A DNA stretch of 64,000 nucleotides from Fibrobacter sp. UWB4 (GTDB lineage Bacteria; Fibrobacterota; Fibrobacteria; Fibrobacterales; Fibrobacteraceae), in NCBI RefSeq assembly GCF_002210345.1, contig NZ_MWQI01000004.1:62001-126000 (forward strand), given 5' to 3'. The notes beneath the pieces are model-generated. The model saw nothing but the letters and a program-made list of their open reading frames with translations. It ran no database searches and had not been told where the DNA came from. Below, one piece after another: positions 27,832-51,531 of the stretch; the first letter of the stretch is position 1; each line of letters begins with the position of its first letter. A program made the position numbers and the translations under genes.

Positions 27832-27904
27832 GTCTAATTGGATTGTTTTAAAACTCTTTAGAGTAGAAGAATTGTAGGTGCTTAATTTATTTTTACTCGT
27901 CCAT
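27832..27904 (+). promoter_or_regulatory. Control element of TonB receptor B, shared with tonB
   Basis: The segment from GTCTAATTGGA to CGTCCAT aligns along its length with 55190-55262 before tonB. Shared blocks are GTCTAATYGGA, TTTAGAGTAGAA, and TAATTTATTTTT ending in CGTCCAT. It must hold the promoter and a common regulator site. TAGAAG/TAGAAT after TTTAGAG may be the -10. Confidence 0.55.
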
Positions 27905-27926
27905 GTTGGAATTGGGACTTTCGAAA

Positions 27927-30137: not shown

Positions 30138-30151
30138 ACAAAGGATAAAAC

Positions 30152-31372
30152 ATGAAAAACCTCTTTAAAAATATTTTCTTGGCGGCATCGCTGAGCCTTG
30201 CTCTTTCGGCTTGCGGTGATGACACGGGTTCCAATGCCGATGACAACGGCTCTGGAAAGGATTCTGAATCCGCTAATTATGCGCTTTCGTTTAAAGTGGA
30301 TAATGCTCAGTATTATGGCGTGGGCAAGTTCACTGATAACCAAAAGAAGCTCATTGAAAATTTTGATGAAGGTCCGTCTACTGGAACTGTTGCCTATTTT
30401 GATGGTGCAGTCTACACATTGATGGTCAGTGAGGATTTCTCGTCTACGACATTGTCTCGCTATGAACTGGATAAGAAAGGCCGTATGCCGGAAAAGGCTA
30501 CGGCAACGTACAAGATTACGTCCGGTCCGTCTCTCATGTTCATTTTTGTGGACAAAGATAAGATGTATGTCGAAGAACCGTATGGTGACAAGCTTACCGC
30601 TCTGAATCCGAAAACTTTGAAGAAATTGGGCGAGGTGAAGTTTACACCGGATAAGGGCGCTCAGCTTGCGGCTCCGAGTTCCGCAGTTATTCGCGATGGC
30701 AAGATCTATGTCTCGCTTGCTCAGATGATCGATATTGAACAGGGTGTCGGCTCCCCGTATGGTACTGTTGCTATTGTTGATATTGCTACAGATAAGGTCG
30801 AAAAGGTTATCAAGGAAGACAAGACGGCTTATCTTGGTATTTATGACGATATGAATAACACGATGGCTTTTGTTGATGAAAATGGCGATATCTACTTCTA
30901 TGCTATGGCCATGTTCGGCATGCTCGGCGAAGATTACAAGGAAGGTTATGTCCGCATCAAGAAGGGCGAAACGGAATTTGATAAGGATTACGTCCTTCGC
31001 TTGAATGAATGTGCGTATAAGGGAAAGAGAGTCGAATTTGGTGGCCTTATGACAGGTGGTGCTTATGCTGGTGACGGCAAGTATGTTGCCTTGTTCGGTA
31101 CTTTTGAAGACCCGTCGAATATGAACAATTATGAATGGCAGCCCATCCTCATTGACTTGAAGAAAAAGAAGATTACAAATCTTGACCTTGGCCCGACGCT
31201 TTCCTGGCTCGCTCCGTCAATCCACCTTGACACGGATGGAACGGTTATCTTTGGACATAACGATGGTAAAAAGTCCGCTATTTACCGTTACGATGTAAAG
31301 GCTAATAAGCTTAAAAAGGAAATGGATGTTTCTTCTGGCGATGCTTTCTTCATCGTTCCTACTAAGGACTAG
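30152..31372 (+). CDS. Beta-propeller surface lipoprotein linked to TonB receptor B
   Basis: The 406-residue lipoprotein has lipobox SLALSACGDD, an Asp/Ser linker and blades such as GTVAYFDGAVYTLMVSEDFS, DKLTALNPKTLKKLGEVKF and GTVAIVDIATDKVEKVIKE. These align in order with the blades of the protein at 21789, so the two are paralogues. It starts after AAAGGATAAAAC and shares a transcript with receptor B. Role as for its paralogue: capture of the ligand outside the barrel. This is an inference from context. Confidence 0.65.
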   Translation: MKNLFKNIFLAASLSLALSACGDDTGSNADDNGSGKDSESANYALSFKVDNAQYYGVGKFTDNQKKLIENFDEGPSTGTVAYFDGAVYTLMVSEDFSSTTLSRYELDKKGRMPEKATATYKITSGPSLMFIFVDKDKMYVEEPYGDKLTALNPKTLKKLGEVKFTPDKGAQLAAPSSAVIRDGKIYVSLAQMIDIEQGVGSPYGTVAIVDIATDKVEKVIKEDKTAYLGIYDDMNNTMAFVDENGDIYFYAMAMFGMLGEDYKEGYVRIKKGETEFDKDYVLRLNECAYKGKRVEFGGLMTGGAYAGDGKYVALFGTFEDPSNMNNYEWQPILIDLKKKKITNLDLGPTLSWLAPSIHLDTDGTVIFGHNDGKKSAIYRYDVKANKLKKEMDVSSGDAFFIVPTKD

Positions 31373-31540: not shown

Positions 31541-34500
31541 CTAATAGATGAGAGTTATGAATTCCCTGATGCTCTTTGCTTGGAGAATCTGGTCGATGCT
31601 TACGGTCTTCTTGAGGTCTAGTGCAATCTTATCGACGAGTTTCATCAAGGTGATGGAATCACCACCGATAGAATAGAAGTCATCGTCAAGCGTGATGCCC
31701 GGATTCTCGAAAACGCTTTGCCAGAGTTCAAGCATTGCTTTTTCTTCATCGGAGATGTTCTCGTTTGCGGTTGCGCTTGTTGCATTTTGTGCGACCGCTG
31801 CAATGGGCGCTTCCGGAATCGGGAGCTGCTTCTTGTCAACCTTGCCGTTTGCAGAAAGCGGGAAGGATTCCATCGTGACGATTCTTGAAGGAATCATATA
31901 ACCCGTGAGCGTTTTGGATATTTCGCTCTTGAGCGTTGCTTCTGCATTTTCGATATTGGCGCCGAGAACATAGGCGATGATTTGCTTGCCGCTCCCTGGG
32001 ACATCCTTGAGTGCTGCGACGGCTCGTGTGACGAGTCCCGTGTGCATCAATGCGGCTTCGATTTCACCGAGTTCAATGCGGAATCCGTTGAGCTTGATTT
32101 GCGTATCGGAACGCCCGAGGAACTCGATGTAACCTTCGGTCTTGAGCTTGCCCAAGTCTCCGGTGCGGTAGATGCGGCCAAGTTTCGGATGGTTGATGAA
32201 TGCCTTGCTTGTCTTTTCGGGATCGTTGTTGTAGCCTTTGGCAAGACCCACGCCACCAATGTAGAGGTCGCCCTGGACTTCTGGCGGGCAGGGCTTCAAG
32301 TCAGCGTTGAGCACGTAGAATGTCTGGTTCTTCATCGGGTAGCCGTAAGGTACGCAGTCCCATTCCGGGCGTACTTCGCTGAATGGGTAGATGATGGACC
32401 AGATGGCCGCTTCGGTCGCGCCGCCGAGACTGATGAGGTCTGCCTTGCAGCCTGCATTCTTTGATGTTGTGCAAATGTCAAGCGGGATGCGGTCGCCCGA
32501 AAGGAGGACCTTGCGGAGCGAAAGATTCCTTGAATCGTTTGCAGAAATGCGGTGTTTCATCGCCATGTCGAAAAGCACGGGGACAGAATTCCAGACGGTC
32601 ACGTTCTGTGTACTGAGAACTTCGCAGACTTCGCGCATGTCGCGCGCGTCGCTCACTAAAGCGAGCTTTGCGCCGCTGCTGAGAGCGCCGAATATGTCGT
32701 ACACGGAAAGGTCGAAGCAAATCGAAGAAATGCCGATGAGCGCGTCGTTTTCGTTGAGGGCGAGTCGTTCGTTGACATCGATAATCGTATTTGCGGTCGC
32801 CCCGTGCTGCATGATGACGCCCTTGGGCTTGCCTGTGCTACCGGATGTGTAGATGATGTAGGCTTCGTCTTTGGGCGTGTTGATTGCCGGAAGTGCTTTG
32901 TTGCTGTAGCTTAAGATTCCCTTGGATTCGAGATAGGACTTTTTCAGCAGGAATTTGCAGTTGCCATCTTGCATGATGAAGTCTACGCGTTCTTTTGGGT
33001 ACGAAACATCGATTGGAACGTAGACGCCGCCTGCCTTGAGAATGCCGAGAATGCTTGCGATTGTTTCCGGGATGCGCTCGCCGAGAACGGCAACGCGGTC
33101 ACCGCGAATGACTCCGTTATCGTGGAGGTAATTGGCGATGCGGTTCGAAAGAATGTCGAGTTCCGCGTAGGTAAACGCTGAATCTTTCCCGACAACGGCC
33201 GTGCGGTCCTTGAAGTTCTGCATGGCGTTATTGACAAGCCCATGCAGCGTTTTTACAGGAGTTGCACCGACAGCGGGGTTGTAGTTATTCCATACGTTCT
33301 TGAGTTCCGGGAAATGGAGCTTGTTTTCGCCGTTGGCGATGTAACGGATGTTTTCGACAAAGTCCTTGAAAATCTGGTCGATGATTTCAGGCTCGAAAAT
33401 TTCCTTGACGACATCCCAGGTCACATAGAGCTTTTTGCCCATTTCTCCAATTTGGTTGTCAATGAAAATTTGCGGAGTCTGCGAAATGGAATAGCGCAAC
33501 TTGCCAAGAACTTCATAGTAGTTTTCTGGCGCGTCAAACAAGACGCAGGTGAAGACCACGGGCAAAATGGCCTTGCCGAACTGGTTCCTTGATTTGGCGA
33601 GTTCACGCATGATTTCGGTGCCGTCGTAAGACAAGTGCTCAAGACCGTCCATGATGCGCGTCTGCACGTCGGAAGCCTGTTTCCACAAGTCGTTTTCGTT
33701 CATCGAAAGTGCGAGTGGCAAGAGCTTCGTAAAGTCACCGATGATTTTTTCGACGTCCTTGTGGAACGGCTTGCGCTCGAATGCGGTCAGGTTCAGCACC
33801 ATGTCTTGCTGGTTGCTCCAGCGTTCAAGAACCTTGGCGTAGATGGTGCAAAGCAGTGCTGACGGCGAAATGCGATGCTCTTTGGCGACCTTCTTGAAGT
33901 TGCTCCAGGTCTTTTTGCAGATAACATCTTGCTTTCGTACGATTGTGTATTCGGTGCAATCCGAAACTTTTTGCGCAAGCGGCACATGCGGGTATTCGGG
34001 GAATGTCGGCAATCGTTCCATCCAATACGCCTTATCTTCTTCATAGCGCTTTTCATCGCGAGAACGGGAAAGGTCGCGGACGTAGCGCTCGTAGGAGTAG
34101 CCGATGCGTTCTTCGAACGGCTGCTTGCGCAAAATGCGTCCCAGATCCGAGAAGAAAATCTGCATGCTGTCGCCGTCGCAAACCATCAAGTCGAAACTCA
34201 CGAAAACGGTGCGGGTATCTTCGCCGTAATCGACGGCCTTGAAGGTGAATAGTGGCCATTCGTCGTGCTTGTATATGTGGTGCGAAAGATCGTTCCTGAT
34301 TTTGAGTGTCTCGGTTTCACGTTCTGCCGAGGTGCATTTCACGACTTCCATCTTGTAATCGGGAACGTCGGTGAGAACCTTCTGCGTACCGTTGGGGAGG
34401 AAGATTGCGCGGAATGCGTCGTGCTTTTTTACGACTTTGCGGATGGCGTTTTCGATTTCGGGAACAGTGTATTGCGATTCGATTTCGAAGTAATAATGCG

Positions 34501-37500
34501 CGTTGTACTTGCCGAGTTCAAAGTGCTCGTTTCGCCCGTTCAGGTAGGCGAGCTGAACGCCTGTCATCGGGAATTCTCTGCCTTTGCCGGATTCGCCAGA
34601 ATCCGTGGCGGAAAGCGCGTCGGCTGCACTTTTGGGAACAATCATGTCTTCGACGGATTCGGCAAAGTCCCTAGCGTTCTGTGCATTCAAAACGGAAACG
34701 AACGGGACGCGGATGCCGTATTTCTGGTCAATGCGCTGTGCGATTCTTTGAGCCTTGATGGAATCGCCGCCGAGTTCGAAGAAGTCGAGACTGCAATCGA
34801 TTTCCTTGAGTTCGAGAACCGATTTCCAGATGTCGATAATCACGGATTGCGTTTCGGTGAGGACCACTGCAGCTTTGGTTTCAGCCGCATTTGCTGTGGC
34901 CGTAGTGCCTGCGGAGAGATTCTGCATAAGCGTTTTGCGGTCGAGCTTTCCGTTGGAAGATAAAGGCATTGCATCCAGGTGGATGAACCTGTGCGGAATC
35001 ATGTATGCGGGCAGGAACTGAGAAAGCTCGTTCTTGAACCATTCCTTGTCCTGTTGCGTACCGGTGTAGAATGCGACAATTTTCTTGTTCGTATCCAGGA
35101 CGATAATGGCGCTATCGACGGATGCAATGGCGTTCATGCGCTGCTCGATTTCGCCGAGTTCAATGCGGTAGCCGCCGACTTTGACTTGACTGTCCTTGCG
35201 GCCGAGGAATACGACATAGCCGTTTGTCGAAAAACGCCCGAAATCCCCGGTCTTGTAAATGCGACCGAATTTCGGATGGTCGATGAATGCGGCCTTCGTC
35301 TTTTCTTCGCTGTTGGCGTAACCTTGAGCGACGCCCACGCCGCCGATATAGATTTCGCCTTGGACTTCGGGCGGGCAGATTTCAAGCGATTCGTTCAGAA
35401 CGTAAATTGTCTGGTTTGCAAGCGGGTAGCCGTAAGGAATGCTTTGCCATGATGGATCCACTTGCACAATCGGGAAGTAGATGGACCAAATGGAAGCTTC
35501 TGTTGCACCGCCCAAGCTGTAAATTTGGGCATTGGGGAAATGCTTGCGGATGCGTTCTGGGAGCGAAACGGAAATCCAGTCGCCGCTCAGTAGGACAGAT
35601 TTGAGTTCGCTGTTAGTGTAGGAATCGTCAAGGCTGTCGATGAAAAGTTCCATGCCGGCAGGGACGGAGTTCCACAAGATATTCTTGGAACTGTCCATGA
35701 ACTTGCGGATTTCATCGGTTTCACGAATGTCTTTTGCGATATCGAGTTTGCCGCCAGCAATCAATGTGCCGAAGATATCGTACACGGAAAGGTCGAAGCA
35801 GTACGAAGAAAGTCCGAGAATTGTGGAGTTCTCGTTTACGCCCATGCGCTCGTTGATGTCGATGATGGTGTTCATCATTGCTGCATACGAAATGAGCACT
35901 CCCTTCGGGACGCCTGTGCTTCCGGAAGTGTAAATGACGTAAGCGGTGGCATTGAGGTCTGGATTCGGCGCAAAATCGGCGCGTTCGCGGGTTGGCGATT
36001 CTACAAGTTTTTGCGGTTCTACCAACAGCTTGCAATTGGAATTCTTGACAATGTAATCCTTTCTGTCTTCGGGCCACTTGGCGTCAACGGGAATGTATGT
36101 CGCGCCAAGTCCCATCGTGGCAAGGATTGTGATGACGGTCGAGAAATTCTTTTGCGAGAGAATGGCGACGGAATCGCCGCATGTCACGCCCTGTATTTTG
36201 AGCATGAACATGGCCTTGCGTACAGAATCTTCGAGTTCAGCGTAAGTCATGGTCGTCATGACGCCATCTTGCAATGCGATGTTGTCGCGGAACTTTGCAA
36301 AGGAACGCTGCAAGTATGCGATCGGATGCTCAATGCTGAATGTCTTTGCAGTGCTGTTGTAAGCTTCCACTCTTTTTTCAACATTGATGGCTGGGCTTGC
36401 GAAGTCGGCGCTTGCTGCAAATTCTTCAATGGATTCGCTGTAGAATTGGAACATCTCGGCGATGAAATCTTTCGGGAAAATCTTTTCGAGATAGTCCCAT
36501 GAAATCAAGAGTCCGCCATCGTGCGTTTTGCTGATCTGGTTATCGATGCTGACTTGGGATGTCTGCGATTGAATGTAATTTACCTGCAAACCTTGCGGTT
36601 CAGGGAGCTTGCCGAAGAGCATGCTTGTAAAGACAATCGGCATCGGATTGTCTTTGTCGATCTGCTTTTGACGGATCAAGTCGCGAATGACTTCGACGCC
36701 TTCGTAAGCGCTGTGGTCGATGCGTTCGTACATGCGGTCGCGAACTCTCTGGAGCGTGTCACGGACATTCAGGCCGTCAAGCGATTTTGCAGAAAAGTCG
36801 AAGATGACGTTGCTTGTGTAATCGCCGATGATGTGGTCCATGCCTTCAATGCCGTAAGGACGGTTGAGCATGGTGATGTTGACGGAAAAATCTCCGCTTT
36901 CGCTGAATCTTGCGAGCGTTTTCAAGTAAAGGTAGAAGAGAACTACGCTGGAAGTGACGCCGTTTTTGCGGGCGGTGATTTCCATTTTGCGGAGCGTTTC
37001 CTTGCTGAATATTTTTTGGACGCGGTTGCAGATGTTGGCTTCGTTGTCGTTTGCGCTTATAACGGGGAACTTCGGCGCTGCGGGAATATCGGCTTCGAGA
37101 CTGTGCCAGAATTCAGCGTCGCGATCGTGCTTTGCGCTGTCCTTTCGGGACTTGATCCATTCAACGTATTGCGGATTACTTTCAAAGTCAAATGATGGCA
37201 AGACGCCTTCGTGATAGAGCGACAGAAATTCCGAGGCGAGTCCCTGTGTGCTTAACCCGTCAACGAACATGAGTTCTAGATCGACGGCGGCAATGGAACG
37301 CTTTTCGGTTGTAATGTTCGTAATGTCAAATAGCGGCCATTTGCCGAGATCGCGCATTTCGGTTTGTGCGCGTAAACGCTTTTGATCGAGGTGTTGCTTT
37401 AAATCGCTCTCCGCAACGGCTTCGCGTACGATCTTGAAATTCTTGCTGATATCCTTGGCGAGGATGCACTGGTTTTCGTCTTCGACAAATGCACGGAGCG

Positions 37501-37906
37501 CTTCGTGCTTTTCGATGAGCTTACGAATGCAATCTTCGGCTTTGTCAATGTCTAGAGCGTGTTCTACTTCAAAATAAAAATGAGTAGAATTAACAGAACC
37601 ATGGAAATTCTGCTCACGCCCTAGACGGTAGGACTGCTGCATTGGCGTCAAGGGGATTTTTTTTTCGACATCGGCTCCTTTGCCGAGTTTTTCCTGGATT
37701 TTATCCACCAAGTCACCGATTGTTTCTGCTTTAACCAAATCTAGCATGCCGAATTCGATTCCGAAAGTTTCCTTGGCTTCGCCCAAAAATCGGAACATCT
37801 GGATGGAATCTTCAAAGACTTCATACAGCGAGGTTTCTCTGGAAATTTTTTGATTTAAAAACTTTTCAATAGAATCGTATATTTCTTGTGATGTAAACTG
37901 AGACAT
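31541..37906 (-). CDS. NRPS: ACP-Cy-A(Cys)-PCP-Cy-A(Cys)-PCP
   Basis: The 2121-residue synthetase opens with a carrier domain whose pantetheine serine is S34 (FEDSIQMF). There is no adenylation domain for it, so a separate ligase must load it. Cy1 (about 84-515) has ELMFVDGLS at 211-219, with Glu for the first Asp of D-x4-D-x2-S. A1 (540-1000) has D705 L706 Y709 N746 L772 S774 L798 I806 W807 K987, the cysteine code DLYNLSLIWK. PCP1 serine is S1049. Cy2 has the full DLMVCDGDS at 1239-1247. A2 again reads DLYN-LS-L-IW. PCP2 serine is S2084. There is no TE, so the chain passes to another protein. It condenses and cyclises two cysteines onto the starter, giving two thiazolines. It is the last gene of the operon. 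Confidence 0.9.
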   Translation of the reverse strand: MSQFTSQEIYDSIEKFLNQKISRETSLYEVFEDSIQMFRFLGEAKETFGIEFGMLDLVKAETIGDLVDKIQEKLGKGADVEKKIPLTPMQQSYRLGREQNFHGSVNSTHFYFEVEHALDIDKAEDCIRKLIEKHEALRAFVEDENQCILAKDISKNFKIVREAVAESDLKQHLDQKRLRAQTEMRDLGKWPLFDITNITTEKRSIAAVDLELMFVDGLSTQGLASEFLSLYHEGVLPSFDFESNPQYVEWIKSRKDSAKHDRDAEFWHSLEADIPAAPKFPVISANDNEANICNRVQKIFSKETLRKMEITARKNGVTSSVVLFYLYLKTLARFSESGDFSVNITMLNRPYGIEGMDHIIGDYTSNVIFDFSAKSLDGLNVRDTLQRVRDRMYERIDHSAYEGVEVIRDLIRQKQIDKDNPMPIVFTSMLFGKLPEPQGLQVNYIQSQTSQVSIDNQISKTHDGGLLISWDYLEKIFPKDFIAEMFQFYSESIEEFAASADFASPAINVEKRVEAYNSTAKTFSIEHPIAYLQRSFAKFRDNIALQDGVMTTMTYAELEDSVRKAMFMLKIQGVTCGDSVAILSQKNFSTVITILATMGLGATYIPVDAKWPEDRKDYIVKNSNCKLLVEPQKLVESPTRERADFAPNPDLNATAYVIYTSGSTGVPKGVLISYAAMMNTIIDINERMGVNENSTILGLSSYCFDLSVYDIFGTLIAGGKLDIAKDIRETDEIRKFMDSSKNILWNSVPAGMELFIDSLDDSYTNSELKSVLLSGDWISVSLPERIRKHFPNAQIYSLGGATEASIWSIYFPIVQVDPSWQSIPYGYPLANQTIYVLNESLEICPPEVQGEIYIGGVGVAQGYANSEEKTKAAFIDHPKFGRIYKTGDFGRFSTNGYVVFLGRKDSQVKVGGYRIELGEIEQRMNAIASVDSAIIVLDTNKKIVAFYTGTQQDKEWFKNELSQFLPAYMIPHRFIHLDAMPLSSNGKLDRKTLMQNLSAGTTATANAAETKAAVVLTETQSVIIDIWKSVLELKEIDCSLDFFELGGDSIKAQRIAQRIDQKYGIRVPFVSVLNAQNARDFAESVEDMIVPKSAADALSATDSGESGKGREFPMTGVQLAYLNGRNEHFELGKYNAHYYFEIESQYTVPEIENAIRKVVKKHDAFRAIFLPNGTQKVLTDVPDYKMEVVKCTSAERETETLKIRNDLSHHIYKHDEWPLFTFKAVDYGEDTRTVFVSFDLMVCDGDSMQIFFSDLGRILRKQPFEERIGYSYERYVRDLSRSRDEKRYEEDKAYWMERLPTFPEYPHVPLAQKVSDCTEYTIVRKQDVICKKTWSNFKKVAKEHRISPSALLCTIYAKVLERWSNQQDMVLNLTAFERKPFHKDVEKIIGDFTKLLPLALSMNENDLWKQASDVQTRIMDGLEHLSYDGTEIMRELAKSRNQFGKAILPVVFTCVLFDAPENYYEVLGKLRYSISQTPQIFIDNQIGEMGKKLYVTWDVVKEIFEPEIIDQIFKDFVENIRYIANGENKLHFPELKNVWNNYNPAVGATPVKTLHGLVNNAMQNFKDRTAVVGKDSAFTYAELDILSNRIANYLHDNGVIRGDRVAVLGERIPETIASILGILKAGGVYVPIDVSYPKERVDFIMQDGNCKFLLKKSYLESKGILSYSNKALPAINTPKDEAYIIYTSGSTGKPKGVIMQHGATANTIIDVNERLALNENDALIGISSICFDLSVYDIFGALSSGAKLALVSDARDMREVCEVLSTQNVTVWNSVPVLFDMAMKHRISANDSRNLSLRKVLLSGDRIPLDICTTSKNAGCKADLISLGGATEAAIWSIIYPFSEVRPEWDCVPYGYPMKNQTFYVLNADLKPCPPEVQGDLYIGGVGLAKGYNNDPEKTSKAFINHPKLGRIYRTGDLGKLKTEGYIEFLGRSDTQIKLNGFRIELGEIEAALMHTGLVTRAVAALKDVPGSGKQIIAYVLGANIENAEATLKSEISKTLTGYMIPSRIVTMESFPLSANGKVDKKQLPIPEAPIAAVAQNATSATANENISDEEKAMLELWQSVFENPGITLDDDFYSIGGDSITLMKLVDKIALDLKKTVSIDQILQAKSIREFITLIY

Positions 37907-37915
37907 GTAAACTCC

Positions 37916-39535
37916 TTAAATTTTCCCGTTTTTATAAGCTTCAAGAGTCTTTTGCTTTGCAATTTTTCCAAGGGCGGTTCGGATAAACTGCTTGATGGGA
38001 ATGACTTCCTTTAATGAAAATCCCATTTCCGAAAAGACGAAGTTCTTTATTTTTTGAATCGGTATTTCGTCCGTGTTTGCTGTTTCTATGAACAGGTAGA
38101 CTGCGTTTTCACCCGTCTGAGAATTGTTTTCGCCGCAGGCCGCAACTCGATAGCTGAATTTTTTCTCAACAACTTGTTCAATGTCGCGAAGGTAGACGTT
38201 TTTGCCATGGATAAAGAACATGTCTTTTTTTCTGCCGACGACATAAAGCATGTCCATGTACAGAAATCCCAAATCTCCTGTATCAAACCAGCCATCGACA
38301 AAAAGACCTGAAGAATCGAGGTTTAAGTAGCCAGAAAATAATGCTTCGCTTTTAATATGGATTTCTCCAATGGTCAATTCTTCAAGTCGATGGTTTTCGC
38401 TGTCGAAAATGCCAATTTCCATACCGGGAATTGCAAATCCCTGGCTGATCAAATCCATGTCGCCACGCTTGATCGTGGTCAAGTCAAAGTCAATTCCTGA
38501 TTTCAGCTGGTTTAAGTCGATTTCTGGATAGCAGGCTTTTATGTTCAGGCAGACGCCGCCCAAGGCTTCTGTCAAGCCGTATACAGGGGCTATGGCTTTT
38601 TTCTTCAATTTGAACTTTTCAGTAGTCTTTTCGAAGACTTCTACAACTTTACGCGATAAGGGCTCACCACCGTTAAGGATGAAGTCGATGCAGGACAAAT
38701 CCCAGTTCTCGGAACCGTCAAGGGCTTTTAAAATCATGGGGTAGGCAAAATTGGGCGCCGCGCTCTTGTTTGCTCTTGTCTGGTGGATCGCATCAAGCCA
38801 GGATTTAGGATTTTGAATAAAGTCGCCTGCATCCATGTGGACTACATTTGACTTGGAGTACATTGGAAGTACAACGCCGGCGAGAATTCCAAAGACGTGT
38901 TCGAGAGGGAGCCAGATCAACCATTTGTCTTTTTCTGATAACGAAAGCGCAATTTCAAGGCTCTTGATCATCTTCAAGAAGCTTTCGTTTTGCATCACGA
39001 CACCCTTCGGGTCAGATGTGCTGCCTGAAGAGTAAAGAATCAGGACGTTGTCCGAGGGCTTTACATCGGCATAAGCGATATCGGATTCTGCTGTTTTAAA
39101 ATCATCCTGATTTTCTTCGTGAGTGATGATGAGGCGCTTCTCGTCAATGTCTTCCCATAGGAACTTGATAAATTGCAGAGTCTCATCGTCGGCGACAATG
39201 AATGATTTTGGATTACTTTGTGCTACATTTTTTAAACGATGGACCTGGTCGCGGTTTCGCGATGCTGTCAGAAAAGCGGGGACGGCTCCTAGTGAAACTA
39301 GAGCGAAAAAGTTGGAAAGGAACGCCTTTTTTGCAGAGCTGTTAATCTGGAAAATTACGATATCTCCCTGCTTTACGCCTGCATTTAAAAAAGCGTTTCG
39401 TGCTCTGATGATGCCCTGCTTTAGATCGCCTTTTGAAAATAAGGTATATTTTTCACTTTTGATGAGCGTGATTTTAGAGTTATTATCTTCGAGATATTCT
39501 TTCAGTTTTTGATTAAGCGAGGGCAAGTTTTGCAT
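37916..39535 (-). CDS. Fatty-acyl-AMP-ligase-like loading enzyme
   Basis: The 539-residue ANL enzyme has A3 LYSSGSTSDPKG at 168-178, VYGLTEALGG, DGWFDTGDLG and GRKKDMFFIHGKNVYLRDIE. The segment APNFAY (260-265) and the IHGKNVYLRDIE wording are typical of fatty-acyl-AMP ligases that feed carrier proteins. The aryl-acid ligases (DhbE, YbtE) instead read HNYPL/NFPL. It should activate a carboxylic acid, probably an acyl chain, and transfer it to the free N-terminal ACP of the neighbouring NRPS. The frame overlaps the PPTase gene by 23 bases. An unusual aryl substrate remains possible. Confidence 0.8.
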   Translation of the reverse strand: MQNLPSLNQKLKEYLEDNNSKITLIKSEKYTLFSKGDLKQGIIRARNAFLNAGVKQGDIVIFQINSSAKKAFLSNFFALVSLGAVPAFLTASRNRDQVHRLKNVAQSNPKSFIVADDETLQFIKFLWEDIDEKRLIITHEENQDDFKTAESDIAYADVKPSDNVLILYSSGSTSDPKGVVMQNESFLKMIKSLEIALSLSEKDKWLIWLPLEHVFGILAGVVLPMYSKSNVVHMDAGDFIQNPKSWLDAIHQTRANKSAAPNFAYPMILKALDGSENWDLSCIDFILNGGEPLSRKVVEVFEKTTEKFKLKKKAIAPVYGLTEALGGVCLNIKACYPEIDLNQLKSGIDFDLTTIKRGDMDLISQGFAIPGMEIGIFDSENHRLEELTIGEIHIKSEALFSGYLNLDSSGLFVDGWFDTGDLGFLYMDMLYVVGRKKDMFFIHGKNVYLRDIEQVVEKKFSYRVAACGENNSQTGENAVYLFIETANTDEIPIQKIKNFVFSEMGFSLKEVIPIKQFIRTALGKIAKQKTLEAYKNGKI

Positions 39536-40190
39536 TGCGGGGTTCTCCTATTAAAAAGTCGAAAAGATCAATTTTGGTGAGGATGTTGACTGGCAAAAGT
39601 TCTGCACAGTAAGCGGTGATGACCGATTTCTCGCTATCGACAACCTGCATCTTGGCGTATCTGTAATCGAACAGGTTTTCATCGTAGTCCGAAAAATCAA
39701 GGCTTGCGATGTTGTTGTCGATTCCTGTGCCTGTGTATTTGAGGAAGCTCTCCTTCATCGACCAGAAACGGGCAAAAGTGCGTGCTTTGTCATTCGAGTT
39801 TTTTATGGCATGCTGTTCAGAGGGGTGCATTGCGCTTTTAATGCAATCGAGGTTGGCGGGGTCGATGTCTGCGATGTCAACGCCTACGGGTGAACTTGCG
39901 AGAGCGCAAACGACACCTTCGGTGGAGTGCGATAAGCTGAATTGCAGTTCCGGCATTCCCTTAATAAACGGCTTTCCGTAAGGGCCGAATTCAAATTCGA
40001 CTTTTTCGTCAATGCCTTTTTCTTGGATTAAAGCGTAACGCAAGAGGATGTATGCCAATGCCGAAAGCTTGCGATCCTTGAAATAACGGTACTTGTCAAC
40101 TCGCTTGGCTCGCTGTTCGCTTAGCAATGGCCATAATCCGGCCAAGTCTAGTTCCGTAAAAGATTCTGTTCCTGTGAAAATGTATAGCAT
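39513..40190 (-). CDS. Sfp-type 4'-phosphopantetheinyl transferase
   Basis: The 225-residue enzyme attaches the phosphopantetheine arm from CoA to the carrier domains of this cluster. The metal/CoA motifs are present: FSLSHSTEGVVCAL, VGVDIADID and FARFWSMKESFLKYTGTG (W-x-x-K-E-x-x-x-K). A further basic start region (RAKRVDKYRYFKDRKLSALA) is typical of the Sfp/EntD group. The ATG follows the stop of the Cy gene without a gap. Placement inside the operon fits a dedicated activator. Confidence 0.92.
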   Translation of the reverse strand: MLYIFTGTESFTELDLAGLWPLLSEQRAKRVDKYRYFKDRKLSALAYILLRYALIQEKGIDEKVEFEFGPYGKPFIKGMPELQFSLSHSTEGVVCALASSPVGVDIADIDPANLDCIKSAMHPSEQHAIKNSNDKARTFARFWSMKESFLKYTGTGIDNNIASLDFSDYDENLFDYRYAKMQVVDSEKSVITAYCAELLPVNILTKIDLFDFLIGEPRNAKLALA

Positions 40191-41636
40191 TTACAAAACC
40201 TCGTCCCATTTTTCAGTGAGCAGTCTTTTGAGTAAACCGACGTTTGATGCAAACATTTCTTTCAGAGTCTCTGGAGCAAATGCGGGTTCTGCGTAATCCC
40301 AGTTGACAGAAAGCCTACCGTCAAAATTGGTGACCTGATAATCCAACACAACTTGCGGAGTCTTGCTCAGTGCGTAAATCTGGTGCAGTCCGGCGGGCAT
40401 GTCGCTGTTGGACTTCTGGCCGTTTTCGAGTACGCATGTAATCACGATGGGCATTTGTGCGCGCATCGGCGAAAGGCCTTCCTTGAACTTGAGAATCTTC
40501 GTGCCGTCGTAAGTGTGGAAACGCACGAGTTGCCACATGTCCTTTTGAACACTTTGTACGCACTCCAAGAAATTTTTGCATTTCTTGGAAAGCGTGATGA
40601 AAGCGATGTTCGTGAAATCTCCGACGACCGAATTGATGTCCTTGTGGAGCGGCAAACGGTTGAATATGGTGGAGTTGATGGTGAGCGAATCGTTCTTGCT
40701 GAATCCGAGAAGCGTTTTTAGATAGGCTGTGCTGATGACTGCCGCTGGTGTCGTGCGGTATTCTCGGCATCTCTGCTGGAACAGTGCAAATTCCTCAACA
40801 GACAGTTCTCCAGAAATTCTTGAAAAGCGGTGATTGTGGATCTCAGAAAGCGGCTTTGCGTACGGCAAGTCGGGCTCGCATACCAATTCATTGATTTTAG
40901 ATTTCCAGAAAGCTTCGGCTTGCGAATAATCTTGCTGACTATCGAATTTGATCAAGTCGCTGCAATAATCTTTGAATCCGTAATCGATCCATTGCACGAT
41001 TTCGCCGCAGTAGAGCTTGAACATTTGCGAAAGTGCGATCTTTGCGCTCCAGGCGTCCATGATCATGCAGTCGAAATCGAAGTGCAAAACATCCTTGGAG
41101 TTTGGAACGCGTGAAATGCGCATTGTAAAGAAGGGCCATTGATTTAACGGGTAAATGTTGTGGCTCCATTCCTTGCGCTTTTCAAGACGCTGTTCCGCAT
41201 TCTCCAATTCTACGATTTCAATGGAATATTTTGGTGCGGCATCAAGAACGCGCTGCGTTCCTTTTGCAGAAATTACAAGGCGAAGCGCATCGTCATGCGC
41301 GATAACTTCGTTCCATGCGTTTTCTAGCCGTGGAATGTCAATCGTTTCGTCGATTTCCAATTCCATGTAGTAATGCGTATTGATGCCGCCGAGATCGTAG
41401 ACGGGATCTCGGCCGACTAAATACGATTTTTGAATGGGCGAGAGCGGGAATGCGTTTGATTCTTCTGCGGCTATTTTTTCGAGATGCGCGACGATTCCGG
41501 CCTTGTTGGCCTTTAAACATTCCTTGTCTTCGGCGCTGAGCGCTCCGTTTGCGGCACGGAACTTAAGCTTGCCTTCGTCAAGCCAAAGCGTTACGCCCCG
41601 GCTTGCAAATTCGCTAATAAGATGTGAAATATCCAT
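40191..41636 (-). CDS. Free-standing heterocyclisation (Cy) protein with TubC-type docking domain
   Basis: The 481-residue protein has an N-terminal segment of about 55 residues (GVTLWLDEGKLKFRAANGAL, LKANKAGIVAHLEKI) that matches TubC_N beta-hairpin docking domains. A complete Cy domain follows, with the catalytic DCMIMDAWS at 189-197 (canonical D-x4-D-x2-S). No adenylation or carrier domain is attached. It should pair with the A-MT-PCP protein at 48056 to make one split module that forms and cyclises an X-Cys bond. It starts six bases behind the Cy-A-PCP-TE gene, which has a similar docking domain. A free-standing Cy is uncommon in thiazoline siderophore lines. Confidence 0.85.
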   Translation of the reverse strand: MDISHLISEFASRGVTLWLDEGKLKFRAANGALSAEDKECLKANKAGIVAHLEKIAAEESNAFPLSPIQKSYLVGRDPVYDLGGINTHYYMELEIDETIDIPRLENAWNEVIAHDDALRLVISAKGTQRVLDAAPKYSIEIVELENAEQRLEKRKEWSHNIYPLNQWPFFTMRISRVPNSKDVLHFDFDCMIMDAWSAKIALSQMFKLYCGEIVQWIDYGFKDYCSDLIKFDSQQDYSQAEAFWKSKINELVCEPDLPYAKPLSEIHNHRFSRISGELSVEEFALFQQRCREYRTTPAAVISTAYLKTLLGFSKNDSLTINSTIFNRLPLHKDINSVVGDFTNIAFITLSKKCKNFLECVQSVQKDMWQLVRFHTYDGTKILKFKEGLSPMRAQMPIVITCVLENGQKSNSDMPAGLHQIYALSKTPQVVLDYQVTNFDGRLSVNWDYAEPAFAPETLKEMFASNVGLLKRLLTEKWDEVL

Positions 41637-41642: not shown

Positions 41643-44600
41643 TTACCTCGCGAGATTCTTGTAGTTGAGTTTATCTGCGACAACCTTGACGTATTCAGGA
41701 TTCGAGAGACAGGTCAAGTGGTTTCCTGGAATGGGCGATACTTCCAATTCACCGAGGCAAAGCTCGTCCCAGTCGTGGTAGAGAATGTCGAAGTAGCGGT
41801 AGATGCCGTCGTCGTTGTGGGCCTTGAAGTACCTCAAGTTTCCGAACAATGGCGCAGGCGTAAAGTCCGTCATGACGTTGAATCCCTGGTTGAACATGCG
41901 CACAAGTCTTTCAAATGTGCTTCTTTCGGCATTTTCGCCAAACGCATTCGTGTACTTGATGCATAAATCCAGTTTTTCGTCATCGGACATGTGCATGAAA
42001 TCGACAAGCTTATCGCCAGAAGTGAGTTCCTTGGACAAGAGTTCGACATCCTTGTCCGTGATGATCTTCTTGTTGGTCGAGTCCATCATCTTGTTGAACT
42101 TGACAACGAAATCTTCAATGTCGAGTCCCCATTTGTTAAAGTCAACGCCGATCATTTCTGCAAAGAAGATGTCGCGAACGGCATTTGTCCTGCATTGGAA
42201 TCCGAGACGGCTTCCGTCAATGATGCCAAAATCGACGATTTCGATGCCTTTGTCGATAAGGCGTTCTGCCATTTCGATGCCGACGGGGCTTATGTAGCAG
42301 TAGGTGATGATTTGGACTTTCTTGTAATTTGTCGCAAGAGCTGCTTCCGCAAATTTTTTGGCGAGAGTCGGGCCGACTTCCTTTGGCTTCAGCTTGCAGA
42401 ATTCTTCAAGGTCGTTCAAACCGAAGGAAAGAATTTCGCCCAAATCTTGCTGGATGAGCTGTTCCACAAGAATGTTGAACTTGTCAGCGTTCCAGAAAAT
42501 GGCGGGCAGCAAAACGCGTAGGCAATCGTTGCTTGGTTTTCCGTAACGGATGACCTTGAGCATTTCGATTTTTTCAGAAGTTCCATCCTTTGGCTTTTCA
42601 GTCAGGAACTTGACGGTGTCCTTTACGGTGGGTTCGTCAAGCATCTGCTTCAAAAGTGCATCGAACGGAACCTTCGAAGCGATCCCGTTTCGGAGCGTTG
42701 TGGCAACTTGCGCCATGGTCAGGGAATCTGCGCCAAAGTCGTAGAAGTTGGAATCCAATCCCAAATTATCCGATTTGAGAGCCTTGGACCAAATTTCCAG
42801 AATTTCTTTTTCGAGCGGAGTCGTTGGAACGCTTGAATCTGTAGTGCTGTTCTTGGCTGCATTTTCCTTGTCTGCAACGAAAAATTCGACGATCTTTTTA
42901 CGATCGATTTTCCCGTTGGCGGACAAAGGCAAGTGTTCTACCGGCGTGATGATGGACGGAATCATGTAATGCAACAGGAACTTGTCCAAGTATGCTTTTA
43001 ACGATTCTTCGGAATATCCGGCCAAGGTTTCAATCATGGCGTAGATTTCCTTGTGGTCCGGGGCGACAACGACTGCGGCGTTGTTTATGAATTCATAGTC
43101 GCGCAGGACATTTTCAATTTCGCCAAGCTCGATGCGGTGACCGCGAATCTTGACCTGATTGTCTTTGCGGCCTTGGAACTCGATTTCGCCACCAGGGAGA
43201 TAACGACCCATGTCGCCGGTCAAATAGACGTGTTCACCAGTGCTTGGAAGGTCTACAAACTGTGCTGCAGTGCGTTCTTCATCGAGGTAGTAGCCGAGAG
43301 CCACGCCATCGCCGCCAAGCGCGATTTGCCCGGTGACCATTGTCGGGCACGGTTCAAGATTTTCGTCCAGAATATGCATGGTCTGGTTCGCGAGCGGGCG
43401 GCCGTACGGCAAAATCTTGAGACCGTCATCTGGATGGTAACGGTGGTAATTGGACCAAATCGATGCTTCTGTTGCGCCGCCGAGACAGATGACATCTACG
43501 TTGGGCGCGAACTTGCGGATCTTTTCGGGCATGTCTACAGGAATCCAGTCGCCAGAAAGGAATACTTCCTTGAACGGGAGCGGTTCTGCAGAACTCTTGC
43601 TTTCTACAAAGTTGAGGAGCATCTTCATCAATGCCGGTACAGTATTCCATACCGTGATGTGATGCTTGTGGATCAAGGTTTCCCAGGCTTCGGGGTTCAT
43701 GTAATCTTCGGCTGTCGGGAATATGACGGTTCCGCCGTGAGCGAGAACGCCGAAAATGTCATAGACGGAAAGGTCGAAGTTGAGCTGCGAAAGTCCAAGA
43801 ACGGCATCGTCGGCAGTGACTTTGAAACGGTCGTTCATGTCGTCGATGGTGTTCATGGCTCCTTTATGCGTAATGACAACGCCCTTCGGCTCGCCGGTGC
43901 TTCCGCTTGTGTAAATGATGTAGGCGATGTCTTCGGGAATGCGCTTCGGGAATGTCGTTGTATCGATGGTTGTGGCATCATTGCTGAGCGTGTCAACATT
44001 TATTGTCGTAAGCTTGTTTTCAAGGAGTGCTTCGTCTGTAGAAATGCCAATGGCAACTTTTGCACCTGTCTTCTTGACGATCTTTTCGGCACGTCCCTTG
44101 GCCTTGGCGGCTGCGATGGGAACGTAAATGGCTCCAGCGTAAAGAATGCCAAAAACAGAAACGATTTGCCATGATGACTTTTCCATCAGCACGGGGACGC
44201 AATCTTGTGGCTTTACGCCGAGCTTGATCAGCTTGCTTGCAAGAACTTTGGCACGTGCATCAAGTTCTTCAAATGTGAATTTTACATGGCCGTCGTCAAT
44301 GGCGATTTTTTTCGGAGTGCGTTTGACGCTTTCGATAAAGTCGTCTTGCAGCAAACGGACATTCCATTTTTTCTTCGTATCGTTTGCTTCAAAGCGCTCG
44401 GCGGCATCGCGTGTCGGGAGCGCAATTTCTGCAATGTTTTCCCAGTCTGCGTTTTCATTTGCCAATGCGAGCAAGCGCTTTTCAAAGGCGTCAAACATGG
44501 CTTCGAGTACGCCTGCGGGGAATACACCTTCGCGGTAATCCCAGTTGACCTGTAAGCCAAAGGCTCCGTCCATCACCTGACAGTCGATGAATGTCTGCGG

Positions 44601-45911
44601 AGTCTGCGATATGCCGCCGGAAAATTCACCGCGCAGAGGCGTTCCTGAATCGGCAAGGCCAATCGCGCTCGTGTAGACAATTGGCATCGAAAGACTAGAT
44701 TTTTTGCTTTGCCTTGAAATTTCGCGCATGACCTCGACGCCGCTGAAAAGTCGATTGTCCAAGTCTTCGAATAGACGTGCATTGAGTCTGCGTGTGCGAA
44801 CGAGGAAGTTCTCGCGCTTGGATAAATCGACTTCTAACAGGCTGAGCGATGTGAAGTCGCCGACAATGTCCATGACTTTTTCGTGAAGCGGGAGTCGGTT
44901 CAGAACGGTCATGTTGATGCAAAAACGCTTGCTTTGGCTCCATTTTGCCAAAACATCTGCATAGCACGAAAGTATGGGAACGGTTGGCGTGAGACCGTAT
45001 TGCTTTGCGCGCGCCTTCATGCGGTTCCAGGCGTCTGCCGGAATGCGCAGGAATTTTCTACCGAAAGAATCTTTGGATTCGTTTGCCGGAAGTTTCGGAA
45101 GTTCTGGAGCTTCGGGCAATTCCGCAATGCGGTTCATCCAATAGCTCTTTTCTTTTTCGTATCGAGCACTAGACTTGATTTTCTTTTCTGCAATCAGGTA
45201 GTCGCGGAAAGAAACTTCTTCTTCGCCCGAGACGGCGATTCCGTCAAAATAGGCGGCTTCAAATTCGGCAACGAGTTTCCAGATGCTTGTCCAGTCCGCA
45301 AGCAGGAACTCGATAGAGAAATGAAGGATGGCCCCTTCTGCGCTTCGGCTAACGGCAAGTCCGAACATGGGCCATTTGCCGATGGTGTAGGCGCGGCAGC
45401 CCATTTCCTTGCGGAAATTTTCAAAAGCGGTAGCGTTTTCCGGATGCTTTACCAAATCCCATTCAGGGATTTCTAGAGTCGGGATTTCCTTGAGTACCTG
45501 CTGGAATCCGCCTTCGTTAATGACGGCGTGCAGCATGTCGTACTTTGCGACAAGGGCGTTCCAGATGTCCCTAACTTTTTGAGTGTCCAGTTCCTGGTAC
45601 TTTATTTCGAGATACACGTGGCATGCAACACCGCCGTATTCGAAAGTCTTGCTGCGGCCAAGCATGTAGGCAGACTGTACGTCCGTTAACGGGAACGGTT
45701 CGTAACGGTGTGTACGGTCGATGACGAATGTATTTTCGTTTGCGCTCTTGTTCAGCTGTTCAATGATTTCGGCCTTGTGCGCTTTCAGTTGACTTAAGAC
45801 TTCTGCGGTCATCAATTCTTTAGAAGCCTTGTAGCGTAACTTTTCTCCATCCATAAAAAGATGGATGCCTTTTTTTTCAAAGGATTCAATGAGGGCTTCG
45901 ATGTTGTTCAT
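41643..45911 (-). CDS. NRPS: docking-Cy-A(Cys)-PCP-TE, with Cys in the TE nucleophile position
   Basis: The 1422-residue protein starts with a TubC-type docking segment (GIHLFMDGEKLRYKAS, LKAHKAEIIEQL). Cy reads EFLLADWTS at 201-209, again with Glu for the first Asp. The A domain carries the cysteine-type code (FDLSVYDIF, VWNTVPA, VFLSGDW, CLGGATEASIW). PCP serine is S1063 (FGADSLTM). A C-terminal alpha/beta thioesterase domain follows; its nucleophile elbow ITYCYISPVGIEMAERL aligns with G-Y-S-F-G-G, putting Cys1205 at the serine position, with His1398 in PIPGNHLTCL. It is the only TE-bearing NRPS, so it is the likely end of the line and releases the product. Its ATG overlaps the reductase stop by one base on the reading side. 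Confidence 0.88.
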   Translation of the reverse strand: MNNIEALIESFEKKGIHLFMDGEKLRYKASKELMTAEVLSQLKAHKAEIIEQLNKSANENTFVIDRTHRYEPFPLTDVQSAYMLGRSKTFEYGGVACHVYLEIKYQELDTQKVRDIWNALVAKYDMLHAVINEGGFQQVLKEIPTLEIPEWDLVKHPENATAFENFRKEMGCRAYTIGKWPMFGLAVSRSAEGAILHFSIEFLLADWTSIWKLVAEFEAAYFDGIAVSGEEEVSFRDYLIAEKKIKSSARYEKEKSYWMNRIAELPEAPELPKLPANESKDSFGRKFLRIPADAWNRMKARAKQYGLTPTVPILSCYADVLAKWSQSKRFCINMTVLNRLPLHEKVMDIVGDFTSLSLLEVDLSKRENFLVRTRRLNARLFEDLDNRLFSGVEVMREISRQSKKSSLSMPIVYTSAIGLADSGTPLRGEFSGGISQTPQTFIDCQVMDGAFGLQVNWDYREGVFPAGVLEAMFDAFEKRLLALANENADWENIAEIALPTRDAAERFEANDTKKKWNVRLLQDDFIESVKRTPKKIAIDDGHVKFTFEELDARAKVLASKLIKLGVKPQDCVPVLMEKSSWQIVSVFGILYAGAIYVPIAAAKAKGRAEKIVKKTGAKVAIGISTDEALLENKLTTINVDTLSNDATTIDTTTFPKRIPEDIAYIIYTSGSTGEPKGVVITHKGAMNTIDDMNDRFKVTADDAVLGLSQLNFDLSVYDIFGVLAHGGTVIFPTAEDYMNPEAWETLIHKHHITVWNTVPALMKMLLNFVESKSSAEPLPFKEVFLSGDWIPVDMPEKIRKFAPNVDVICLGGATEASIWSNYHRYHPDDGLKILPYGRPLANQTMHILDENLEPCPTMVTGQIALGGDGVALGYYLDEERTAAQFVDLPSTGEHVYLTGDMGRYLPGGEIEFQGRKDNQVKIRGHRIELGEIENVLRDYEFINNAAVVVAPDHKEIYAMIETLAGYSEESLKAYLDKFLLHYMIPSIITPVEHLPLSANGKIDRKKIVEFFVADKENAAKNSTTDSSVPTTPLEKEILEIWSKALKSDNLGLDSNFYDFGADSLTMAQVATTLRNGIASKVPFDALLKQMLDEPTVKDTVKFLTEKPKDGTSEKIEMLKVIRYGKPSNDCLRVLLPAIFWNADKFNILVEQLIQQDLGEILSFGLNDLEEFCKLKPKEVGPTLAKKFAEAALATNYKKVQIITYCYISPVGIEMAERLIDKGIEIVDFGIIDGSRLGFQCRTNAVRDIFFAEMIGVDFNKWGLDIEDFVVKFNKMMDSTNKKIITDKDVELLSKELTSGDKLVDFMHMSDDEKLDLCIKYTNAFGENAERSTFERLVRMFNQGFNVMTDFTPAPLFGNLRYFKAHNDDGIYRYFDILYHDWDELCLGELEVSPIPGNHLTCLSNPEYVKVVADKLNYKNLAR

Positions 45912-46984
45912 TATACACTCTCCCCGCTAAATTTTTTGATGTCGTTAGACGGAATGTAATGATGACCGTCCGGGTGGATGATTTTTGCAAAGCTGAAGGC
46001 GCTTGTGAGTTCGTTCCATTTTTTGGAAACTTGAATCTGCCGTTGTGCCAGTGGCGCTAAATCAACATGGTTGTCGATCATTGATTCCAGCTCCAAGATG
46101 TTGTCTGCGATTCCCAGCTTCCAGTCTCCGAAAAGCGCCTGGTCAAAGTGCTTTGGACTGTAATTGCCTAGCGGTTCGATTGTATTTTCAAGAATATAGG
46201 CCGGCATGTTCTTTTGGTTTTCGGGATTGTATAATGACTTTGGAATATGCATTCGCGGTTTCCATAAAACAGGGCCGAATGTATCTTCAAGAATGAGGCG
46301 GCCTGATTCATAGACGAATGCGAAATTGTGCAACAGGTGCTCGTAATTGTCGCGGTCTTCCGGGAAAACCTGGTTGTTGTATTCCAGCATGATTGGAATG
46401 TCGTCCAGTTTTCCAGTCAAGATGTCGAAGGGACCAACAGCATCGGCAACGCTATCTACGACAAACGAAAAAATGGAGGGCAATGCGTGCGAAAGAATGT
46501 CGATTGCAGGGTAGGAAACCTGCGGGCAGAAAGCTCCCTTGATGTAAAGCGGCAATTCTTTCTTGTTCAGTTCATTTGCAATGCGGATAAATCGCGATAC
46601 TTCGGAAAGCTTTGGGTAAAGATCGCAGACTTTGTAATAAACATTGTTGCGTTTGGCGGCTCTAAAGCAGAGCGAAACATCTTTCAAATGGATCGGCTGT
46701 TCCTGAATGACGTTTACGCCTTTGTCCATAAAACGGATGGCGAGGTCCGTGCCGATGCCGCCAATTGTACCTGAGCTGATGACGACGCATGCAATGTCAA
46801 CTTGAGGAATCTGGTCAAATTCGGTAATCAGCGGAATGCCGTATGTGTCGGCACATTTTTTTGAGCGTTCGCTACCTTTACCATATAAGCCTACAAGTTC
46901 AAATCGTTCGGGCATGCTTTGAAGCGCGTGGATGTAAAACTGCCCAAAAGTGCTTCCGCACACGATGACTTTTTTTCGTTGCAT
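45911..46984 (-). CDS. Thiazolinyl imine reductase (Irp3/PchG family)
   Basis: The 357-residue cytoplasmic enzyme has an N-terminal Rossmann region (KVIVCGSTFGQFYIHAL, VGLYGKGSERSKKCADTYGI) and the Gfo/Idh-like second domain of thiazolinyl imine reductases. In yersiniabactin and pyochelin synthesis these reduce one carrier-bound thiazoline to thiazolidine with NADPH. ATG 46984 is chosen: it lies two bases after the previous stop and behind AAGGAGAAATTT; the longer frame to 47011 overlaps the upstream gene. Its stop overlaps the next NRPS start (TAATG). Its presence is strong evidence that the product holds thiazoline rings. Confidence 0.92.
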   Translation of the reverse strand: MQRKKVIVCGSTFGQFYIHALQSMPERFELVGLYGKGSERSKKCADTYGIPLITEFDQIPQVDIACVVISSGTIGGIGTDLAIRFMDKGVNVIQEQPIHLKDVSLCFRAAKRNNVYYKVCDLYPKLSEVSRFIRIANELNKKELPLYIKGAFCPQVSYPAIDILSHALPSIFSFVVDSVADAVGPFDILTGKLDDIPIMLEYNNQVFPEDRDNYEHLLHNFAFVYESGRLILEDTFGPVLWKPRMHIPKSLYNPENQKNMPAYILENTIEPLGNYSPKHFDQALFGDWKLGIADNILELESMIDNHVDLAPLAQRQIQVSKKWNELTSAFSFAKIIHPDGHHYIPSNDIKKFSGESV

Positions 46985-46985
46985 T

Positions 46986-50787: not shown

Positions 50788-51531
50788 TTAACCTGCTGTA
50801 GCGAGATATTCTGGATATTTTTCTGAATTCAAAACGAAGAAATGGTCTCCTTCGAATTCCTTTTCCTTGAATTCTTTTGTTGTGACGGTTTGCCAACGCT
50901 GCATGATTGTGGATGTGGCGCCGATGTCTCTGGAACCGCAATTGATGTAGATCGGGGCGTCAATGCGTTCGCCATTGTAAATCAGGCTTTCGTTGAGCGT
51001 GTAATCCTTGCGGACTTCTGGGAGCACAAAGTGGAGCAGTTCCTCGTTTTCAAGAATTTCCTTGGGCGTGGCGTTGTACTTTTTGAGTTCGCGGATAAGC
51101 GCATCGTCGCCCATGTAAGTCTTGAATTCTCCCGGATCTTCATCCTGCGGGGCCTGGCGGCCTGCGGCGATAAGCTTTTCCGGGCGGATGCCGTATTTGC
51201 TTTGCAAGTGCTCTGCGACATAGAATGCCATGGCGGCACCCATGCTGTGTCCGAACAGGATAAACGGTTTTCCTTGTGTGACCTTGATGATGCATTCACA
51301 AAGCGGATCGAGGAGTTTCTTGAAGTCGCCGACAAACGGTTCGCGGCGGCGAGTTCCCTTGCCGGGAAGCTCGATGCAGATGAAATTCGTGTTTTTCTTT
51401 TCGAAAGTCCACTTGCGGTATACGCTTGCGGAACCTCCTGCATGGTGAAAACAGAATATTTTTTTATGTTCCGTGTCGTTTAGGGCATAAGTGGAGAAGG
51501 GGAACCAGCGTTCCTCGAGAGTTTTTTCCAT
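50788..51531 (-). CDS. Type II thioesterase (YbtT/GrsT-like)
   Basis: The 247-residue editing hydrolase has FCFHHAGGSASVYRKW, ELPGKGTRRREPF, nucleophile elbow ILFGHSMGAAMAFYVAEHL with Ser, and catalytic His in FEGDHFFVLN. It clears wrongly loaded carrier domains. It sits 17 bases behind the ABC gene and 5 bases before the A-MT-PCP gene, in the same transcript, as ybtT does in yersiniabactin loci. Confidence 0.9.
   Translation of the reverse strand: MEKTLEERWFPFSTYALNDTEHKKIFCFHHAGGSASVYRKWTFEKKNTNFICIELPGKGTRRREPFVGDFKKLLDPLCECIIKVTQGKPFILFGHSMGAAMAFYVAEHLQSKYGIRPEKLIAAGRQAPQDEDPGEFKTYMGDDALIRELKKYNATPKEILENEELLHFVLPEVRKDYTLNESLIYNGERIDAPIYINCGSRDIGATSTIMQRWQTVTTKEFKEKEFEGDHFFVLNSEKYPEYLATAG

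Follow-up and report, generated by a model that had tools for sequence, protein, structure and literature searches.

Which acid starts the thiazoline assembly line encoded in this part of the genome of the rumen bacterium Fibrobacter sp. UWB4? We analyzed a stretch of 64,000 nucleotides (the window), in which a free-standing acyl-AMP ligase gene adjoins the first of several nonribosomal peptide synthetase (NRPS) genes of a predicted thiazoline cluster. The best overall explanation, to which we give a rough probability of 0.6, is that a loader of the fatty acyl-AMP ligase (FAAL) type starts the line with an aliphatic acid, leading to a poly-thiazol(id)ine metallophore with an acyl cap. The source genome assembly comprises 18 contigs with 3,583,713 bases in total, at a completeness of 99.99 and a contamination of 2.31. 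The region of interest, 37803-39535, holds one whole gene, the ligase open reading frame (ORF), followed by the first 34 codons of the adjoining NRPS gene; it ends at the carrier serine S34, as a sequence-only reading of the region had correctly placed it. The first NRPS indeed begins with a carrier domain whose serine is residue 34, and the fatty-acyl-AMP-ligase wording that the same reading had pointed to (APNFAY and IHGKNVYLRDIE) is found in the ligase ORF.

The Loading Ligase Belongs to the FAAL Class

By published sequence criteria the window ligase is assigned to the FAAL class, and it is apparently intact. An extract of PMC8460268 gives these criteria as a helix and an insertion specific to FAALs, a CoA pocket that is blocked (W224, M231, and F279 in the E. 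coli FAAL, EcFAAL), and a proline-lined entrance (P226 and P107). We aligned the window ligase with two lipopeptide loaders, a Klebsiella FAAL, EntE, FadD, and the four cysteine adenylation (A) domains of the cluster. In this alignment the ligase has equivalents of W224, P226, and F279 and of the helix T252-R258, and a phenylalanine, also bulky, at position 231; the position of P107 falls in a gap, as it does in BamA, which we take to be a fatty-acid loader. The FAAL insertion, which the sequence-only reading had named as the feature to look for, is present in the sequence alignment: from YGLTE to the next G-x-x-I there are 42 residues in the window ligase vs. 19-22 in EntE, FadD, and the four cysteine A domains. 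With other limits, and with five further ligases added, FAALs have 47-52 residues and non-FAALs 24; the 47-52 range comes from these other limits, the Klebsiella count under the first limits having been stopped early by the motif search.

The catalytic motifs (YSSGSTSDPKG, YGLTE, TGDLG, and GKI) look intact by eye. The HN motif of EntE/PchD-type aryl-acid ligases is absent from the window ligase, which reads EHV there (EHA in relatives), and all nine Fibrobacteraceae ligases that we compared by eye have EHV or EHA without HN. Pfam identified only the AMP-binding domain, and the top NCBIfam model was a fatty acyl-AMP ligase subfamily at 216.5 bits, below its cut-off of 600, so that no curated FAAL threshold was reached.

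Aromatic Starter Routes in the Genome

Genes for salicylate, dihydroxybenzoate (DHB), or polyketide synthase (PKS) were found in none of the ten cluster proteins scanned, which bears out the earlier claim that the island contains no salicylate, DHB, or aromatic PKS gene, and a salicylate synthase is likewise absent genome-wide. Of the two PF00425 matches in the genome, one scores best as TrpE (482 bits) and the other as PabB; the TrpE-like protein reaches 204 bits against the salicylate synthase model, under the cut-off of 325. The only match to PF01817 is an 87-aa chorismate mutase adjoining a prephenate-dehydrogenase-like ORF, with only 24 bits to the CM-like model (which we take to cover PchB). 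PF00221 (aromatic ammonia-lyases) and PF16197 (type I PKS) have no matches in the genome, and PF16197 has none in the four cluster-bearing relatives searched. The salicylate synthase/isochorismate route typical of coelibactin, yersiniabactin, and pyochelin was not found in this genome, which, as judged from these profile searches, is without a salicylate, DHB, or PKS route. Eight other carriers of the cluster have one or two PF00425 matches each, TrpE- and/or PabB-sized (by number and size alone); G072 and G166 have one match each, and in G037 the frame is in three pieces.

The absence of a salicylate synthase is by itself a weak argument, because the cluster on the Anaerococcus prevotii plasmid pAPRE01, with none annotated within 41 kb, still has an EntE-type ligase, and because equibactin is reported, in an extract of PMC12971057, to use exogenous precursors. 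Both cases, together with the order of 4'-phosphopantetheinyl transferase (PPT), ligase, and NRPS that the Anaerococcus cluster shares with the window, would fit an exogenous aryl acid, e.g., plant salicylate, loaded by an unusual ligase. We consider this very unlikely, however, since the Anaerococcus ligase is itself EntE-type (AHNFP, no insertion) and the HN motif is missing from every Fibrobacteraceae ligase compared. The argument for a non-aryl start is carried by the class of the ligase.

Exchange of the Ligase Among Fibrobacter Genomes

Related loci were found in metagenome-assembled genomes of Fibrobacter, the genus of the window genome. A ligase of at least 58% identity and a thiazolinyl reductase over its cut-off occur in the same 8 of 150 related genomes, a shared occurrence which indicates that their pairing is not due to chance; RUI018 (G166), from another genus of the same family, is a ninth genome with both genes together, and G144 has a partial ligase match of 29%.

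The ligases of the seven other Fibrobacter genomes and RUI018 share 81-98% identity among themselves, and 58-59% with the window ligase. The difference is sharpest against the close relative G001 (the window genome being G000): the ligase proteins share 58% identity, whereas the proteins of 13 other genes share 92.2-99.6%, and identity at four-fold degenerate codons is 36.2% for the ligase vs. 67.8-98.9% for those 13 genes. The first 16 residues of the two ligases are identical, after which identity falls abruptly; in the loading carrier domain it is 36% over residues 1-22 and 79% over residues 23-55, and then exceeds 90% up to residue 200. Rapid selection acting on the protein would leave silent sites unsaturated, so the difference reflects an exchange of the ligase and not a faster pace of change. 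Judging from these identities, the ligase and the start of its carrier domain have been exchanged for a very divergent version, in either the window genome or G001, and this exchange may change the starter. In the unconstrained ligase tree the window ligase is placed with that of RUI018, on a long branch.

G001 is also a mosaic: its ligase and first NRPS (31541-39535 in the window) are closest to those of G050, with 87-88% identity at four-fold sites, and most of its other genes are closest to those of the window.

The Assembly Line and Neighboring Genes

The features of the locus are listed in Table 1. All four A domains have the code D-L-Y-N-(L/L/F/M)-S-L-I-W, which we take to be a cysteine pattern. 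Two of the four cyclization (Cy) domains have an exact DxxxxDxxS motif; it begins with E in P0005 and reads ELMFVDGLS (by eye) in the first Cy domain of P0001. The thiazolinyl reductase scores 226 bits vs. the curated cut-off of 188.8, and P0007 has a weak match to carboxyspermidine dehydrogenase (E 7e-4) and is 20-24% identical to the saccharopine-dehydrogenase-like proteins of three plasmid clusters.

Table 1. Coordinates of the ligase, the assembly line, and adjoining transport genes in the window (T, thiolation domain; TE, thioesterase).
Feature	Position	Strand	Remarks
FAAL-type acyl-AMP ligase	37916..39535	minus	539 aa; Pfam, NCBIfam, alignment, PDB matches
FAAL-specific helix equivalent, AGDFIQNP, aa 236-243	38807..38830	minus	not in EntE, FadD, EntE-type ligases
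FAAL-specific insertion equivalent, about aa 332-357	38465..38542	minus	alignment
Exchanged block, starting near ligase codon 17 and ending at about codon 22-55 of the next gene's carrier domain	37741..39487	minus	limits approximate
Loading carrier domain, phosphopantetheine serine S34 (codon 37805-37807)	37682..37894	minus	limits by eye
NRPS P0001: carrier-Cy-A(Cys)-T-Cy-A(Cys)-T	31541..37906	minus	2121 aa
4'-phosphopantetheinyl transferase	39513..40190	minus	
Stand-alone TubC_N-Cy protein	40191..41636	minus	
NRPS P0005: TubC_N-Cy-A(Cys)-T-TE-like	41643..45911	minus	Cys at nucleophile position (TYCYIS)
Thiazolinyl imide reductase	45911..47011	minus	TIGR01761 over cut-off
Saccharopine-dehydrogenase-like oxidoreductase P0007	46986..48059	minus	
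NRPS: A(Cys)-embedded methyltransferase-like-T	48056..50782	minus	start at ORF Met54, as in relatives
Type II thioesterase	50788..51531	minus	
Two ABC transporter half-subunits (51549-53267 and 53267-55078)	51549..55078	minus	
TonB-dependent receptor 2 and partner lipoprotein 2	27903..31372	plus	
Lipoprotein 1, TonB-dependent receptor 1, FeoA-like ORF (by eye), FeoB	21789..27647	plus	

Each TonB receptor gene has a lipoprotein partner (21789-22991, and 30152-31372 for lipoprotein 2, LP2); LP2 weakly matches DUF4374 (E 5e-4, under the cut-off), which we take to be the family of the XusB siderophore-binding lipoproteins. The small FeoA-like ORF (25399-25620, by eye) lies immediately ahead of FeoB, between both receptor genes. 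A second pair of ABC half-transporters (18127-21610) is found on the opposite side of the receptor genes, and also beside the receptors in G050, G067, and G001.

Two Types of Clusters and Covariation of a Receptor

We find two types of clusters among the carriers. The Cy-A-T-TE protein has 1422 aa in the window and in G001; its counterpart in six of the seven other carriers is 2292-2294 aa long and contains two stretches resembling methyltransferases (by eye) along with a Ser thioesterase, although the Ser motif was not matched in G052, and in G067 the counterpart frame is split over two ORFs. At the position of the GYSF serine in relatives of the other type, the TE-like tail of the window has a Cys. 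Identity to the window is 99% in G001 vs. 66-67% in carriers of the other type for the reductase, and 92% vs. 49-53% for the saccharopine-dehydrogenase-like enzyme. Although they lie about 10 kb from these tail enzymes, TonB receptor 2 (92% in G001 vs. 64-69%) and LP2 (94% vs. 46-52%) show the same split, which the intervening genes do not follow (RUI018 lacks several genes in this gene-by-gene comparison, because its contig ends). This covariation links the receptor to the product, and it supports a compound that would be secreted and re-imported.

A Proposed Route to an Acyl-Capped Product

An aliphatic acid is, we infer, the best reading of the starter. The ligase would adenylate a free aliphatic carboxylic acid, probably taken from primary metabolism or from the rumen, and hand the acyl group straight to the S34 phosphopantetheine in the loading carrier domain. 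If the modules act as predicted, the four Cy domains would then join and cyclize four cysteines, ring reduction or tailoring would fall to the thiazolinyl reductase and the saccharopine-dehydrogenase-like enzyme, and the thioesterase would free the acyl-capped poly-thiazol(id)ine, which probably acts as a metallophore imported by the neighboring TonB receptors.

Several results weigh against this reading, and the first concerns the substrate. The A4 motif of the ligase is LPLEHVFG, vs. HDMG in typical FAALs, and it more closely resembles LPLDH(V/I), as found in the 6ulx protein and McyG. Both of these, McyG and 6ulx/6ulw, are also the solved structures closest to the ligase, and we take them to be phenylpropanoid and keto-acid loaders. 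A loader of this type would start the line with an alpha-keto acid or with an acid resembling phenylpropanoids or phenylacetate, so that the cap would be non-salicyl but possibly aromatic or keto/hydroxy, and phenylacetate is common in the rumen. This seems unlikely, though it is the stronger of the two alternative starters. A control query with BamA also gave 6ulx and McyG as top PDB matches (a query with the Klebsiella FAAL gave 3pbk), so the structure matches do not discriminate the substrate, and we dropped them as a pointer to a keto or phenylpropanoid acid; nor does the genome have an aromatic ammonia-lyase. In addition, EcFAAL position 231 is G in McyG and 6ulx, but F in the window ligase and its relatives and M in BamA, and position 275 is W in McyG and 6ulx, but A in the window, S or A in relatives, S in BamA, and G in 3kxw. 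Among these few reference sequences, the two residues lean toward an open acyl pocket, as expected of the aliphatic start that we prefer. The pocket itself was not visible in the AlphaFold model of the ligase (built with 7 sequences; mean pLDDT 51.9).

The same caution applies to the exchange and to the function of the product. The long branch hampers approximately unbiased (AU) tests, which do not reject placing the window ligase with its own genus (p 0.332), with G050 and G001 (p 0.285), or with G067 added (p 0.284), so the claim of an exchange rests on the four-fold sites and the sharp edges of the block. TonB receptor 2 is highly similar in G001 despite the different ligase, which means that a changed starter would not be mirrored in the receptor. 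Lastly, a Fur-box scan gave no convincing site in the window (7 matches vs. 2.95 expected, with 1 of 100 shuffles as high): one match with 2 mismatches lies at 23126, near the start of TonB receptor 1, and none at the promoter of the NRPS operon. Tantazole and thiangazole are poly-thiazoline bioactive compounds, and a non-metallophore product of that type, or a silent cluster, would agree with the lack of a convincing Fur box and with a chelating set that would be weaker without a phenolate. We regard this as improbable, since two siderophore-type TonB receptors, FeoB, an AraC regulator, and TonB/ExbB/ExbD-like genes (the last by eye) adjoin the cluster, the receptor and tail enzymes covary, and the cluster ORFs are open.

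The motif TCTAATYGGA...TTTAGAGTAGAA has its sole exact copies in the window at 27833-27868 and 55191-55226, one upstream of TonB receptor 2 and the other upstream of the TonB/ExbB-like operon, and may be recognized by the AraC-type regulator encoded at 61572-62546. Two promoter-near motif patterns were no commoner in the window than chance once mismatches were allowed.

Implications of a Possible Line Without a Phenol

The thiazoline siderophores compared here begin with a phenol that helps metal binding, so a line started by a FAAL raises the question of metal binding by thiazol(id)ines without one. Genome mining for metallophores relies on chelator genes, e.g., that of salicylate synthase (extract of PMC12971057), and a FAAL-started line would evade such rules unless its Cy domains catch it. 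Going further, and at somewhat less than even odds, Fibrobacter may make acyl-capped tetra-thiazol(id)ine metallophores without phenolate, with the ligase and carrier start forming a cartridge, exchanged in nature, that places different starters on an otherwise conserved line. The window and G001, a close pair with different ligases, would then offer a starter swap made by nature, of use in engineering how NRPSs are loaded, and their two ligase versions allow side-by-side testing.

Comparison with Known Systems

Searches of the literature on Fibrobacter NRPSs or siderophores, FAAL with thiazoline, lipidated thiazoline metallophores, and thiangazole-type clusters returned no matching system (subscription journals being thinly covered). 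Among FAALs, BamA, the loader of a lipopeptide synthase, has the FAAL-specific insertion and helix and is 29% identical to the window ligase, but it has HDMG where the window has HVFG and is fused to a PKS/NRPS, whereas the window ligase is free-standing. The PKS of micacocidin and massiliachelin reportedly builds an alkyl-aromatic ring. Both systems combine, like the window, a FAAL-acyl carrier protein start with Cys-derived thiazoline/thiazolidine rings, but a figure legend in PMC6604713 places a PKS after the FAAL, whereas the window genome lacks a type I PKS and does not belong to the micacocidin type. Lusichelins and fatuamide A are other thiazoline metallophores, described with salicylate synthases in extracts of PMC12210259 and PMC11877528.

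We fetched six reductase-bearing plasmid clusters out of 215 matching PLSDB records and aligned the ligases of four. In four of the six, a salicylate synthase is annotated alongside a ligase that is either aryl-type or annotated for DHB; given the gaps in the PLSDB gene table, the absence of the synthase from the other two (Anaerococcus and Streptomyces sp. NBC_00727) is a weak finding. The Anaerococcus cluster, presumably equibactin-like, has an ABC pair 39-41% identical to that of the window, and differs in having the reductase fused to a methyltransferase. The coelibactin-like cluster of NBC_00727, without an annotated salicylate synthase in 41 kb, has FAAL-type and EntE-type ligases back to back (L073, 30928-34403).

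The coelibactin-like plasmid clusters of Streptomyces clavifer and Pantoea sp. At-9b align with P0001 and P0005 over a large part of their length at 28-39% identity; for example, P0001 and the first S. clavifer NRPS share 29% over 2216 columns. Such clusters have, like the window, colinear carrier-Cy-A-T-Cy-A-T and Cy-A-T-TE NRPSs, a saccharopine-dehydrogenase-like gene beside the reductase, and a thioesterase with Cys as nucleophile (GYCLGG); such a dehydrogenase and an essential thioesterase Cys are also known from sorangibactin (extract of PMC10127202). They differ in that most have an aryl-AMP ligase and a salicylate synthase, whereas the window has a FAAL and no salicylate route, and in that the window splits one Cys module into a Cy protein and an A-methyltransferase-T protein. 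With colinear Cys-Cy NRPSs, the adjacent pair of genes, and a Cys thioesterase, the predicted backbone is of the coelibactin/sorangibactin type. Taken together with the ligase classes of the plasmid clusters, this shared backbone makes the Fibrobacter lines look like a coelibactin-type backbone in which a FAAL replaces the salicyl starter genes.

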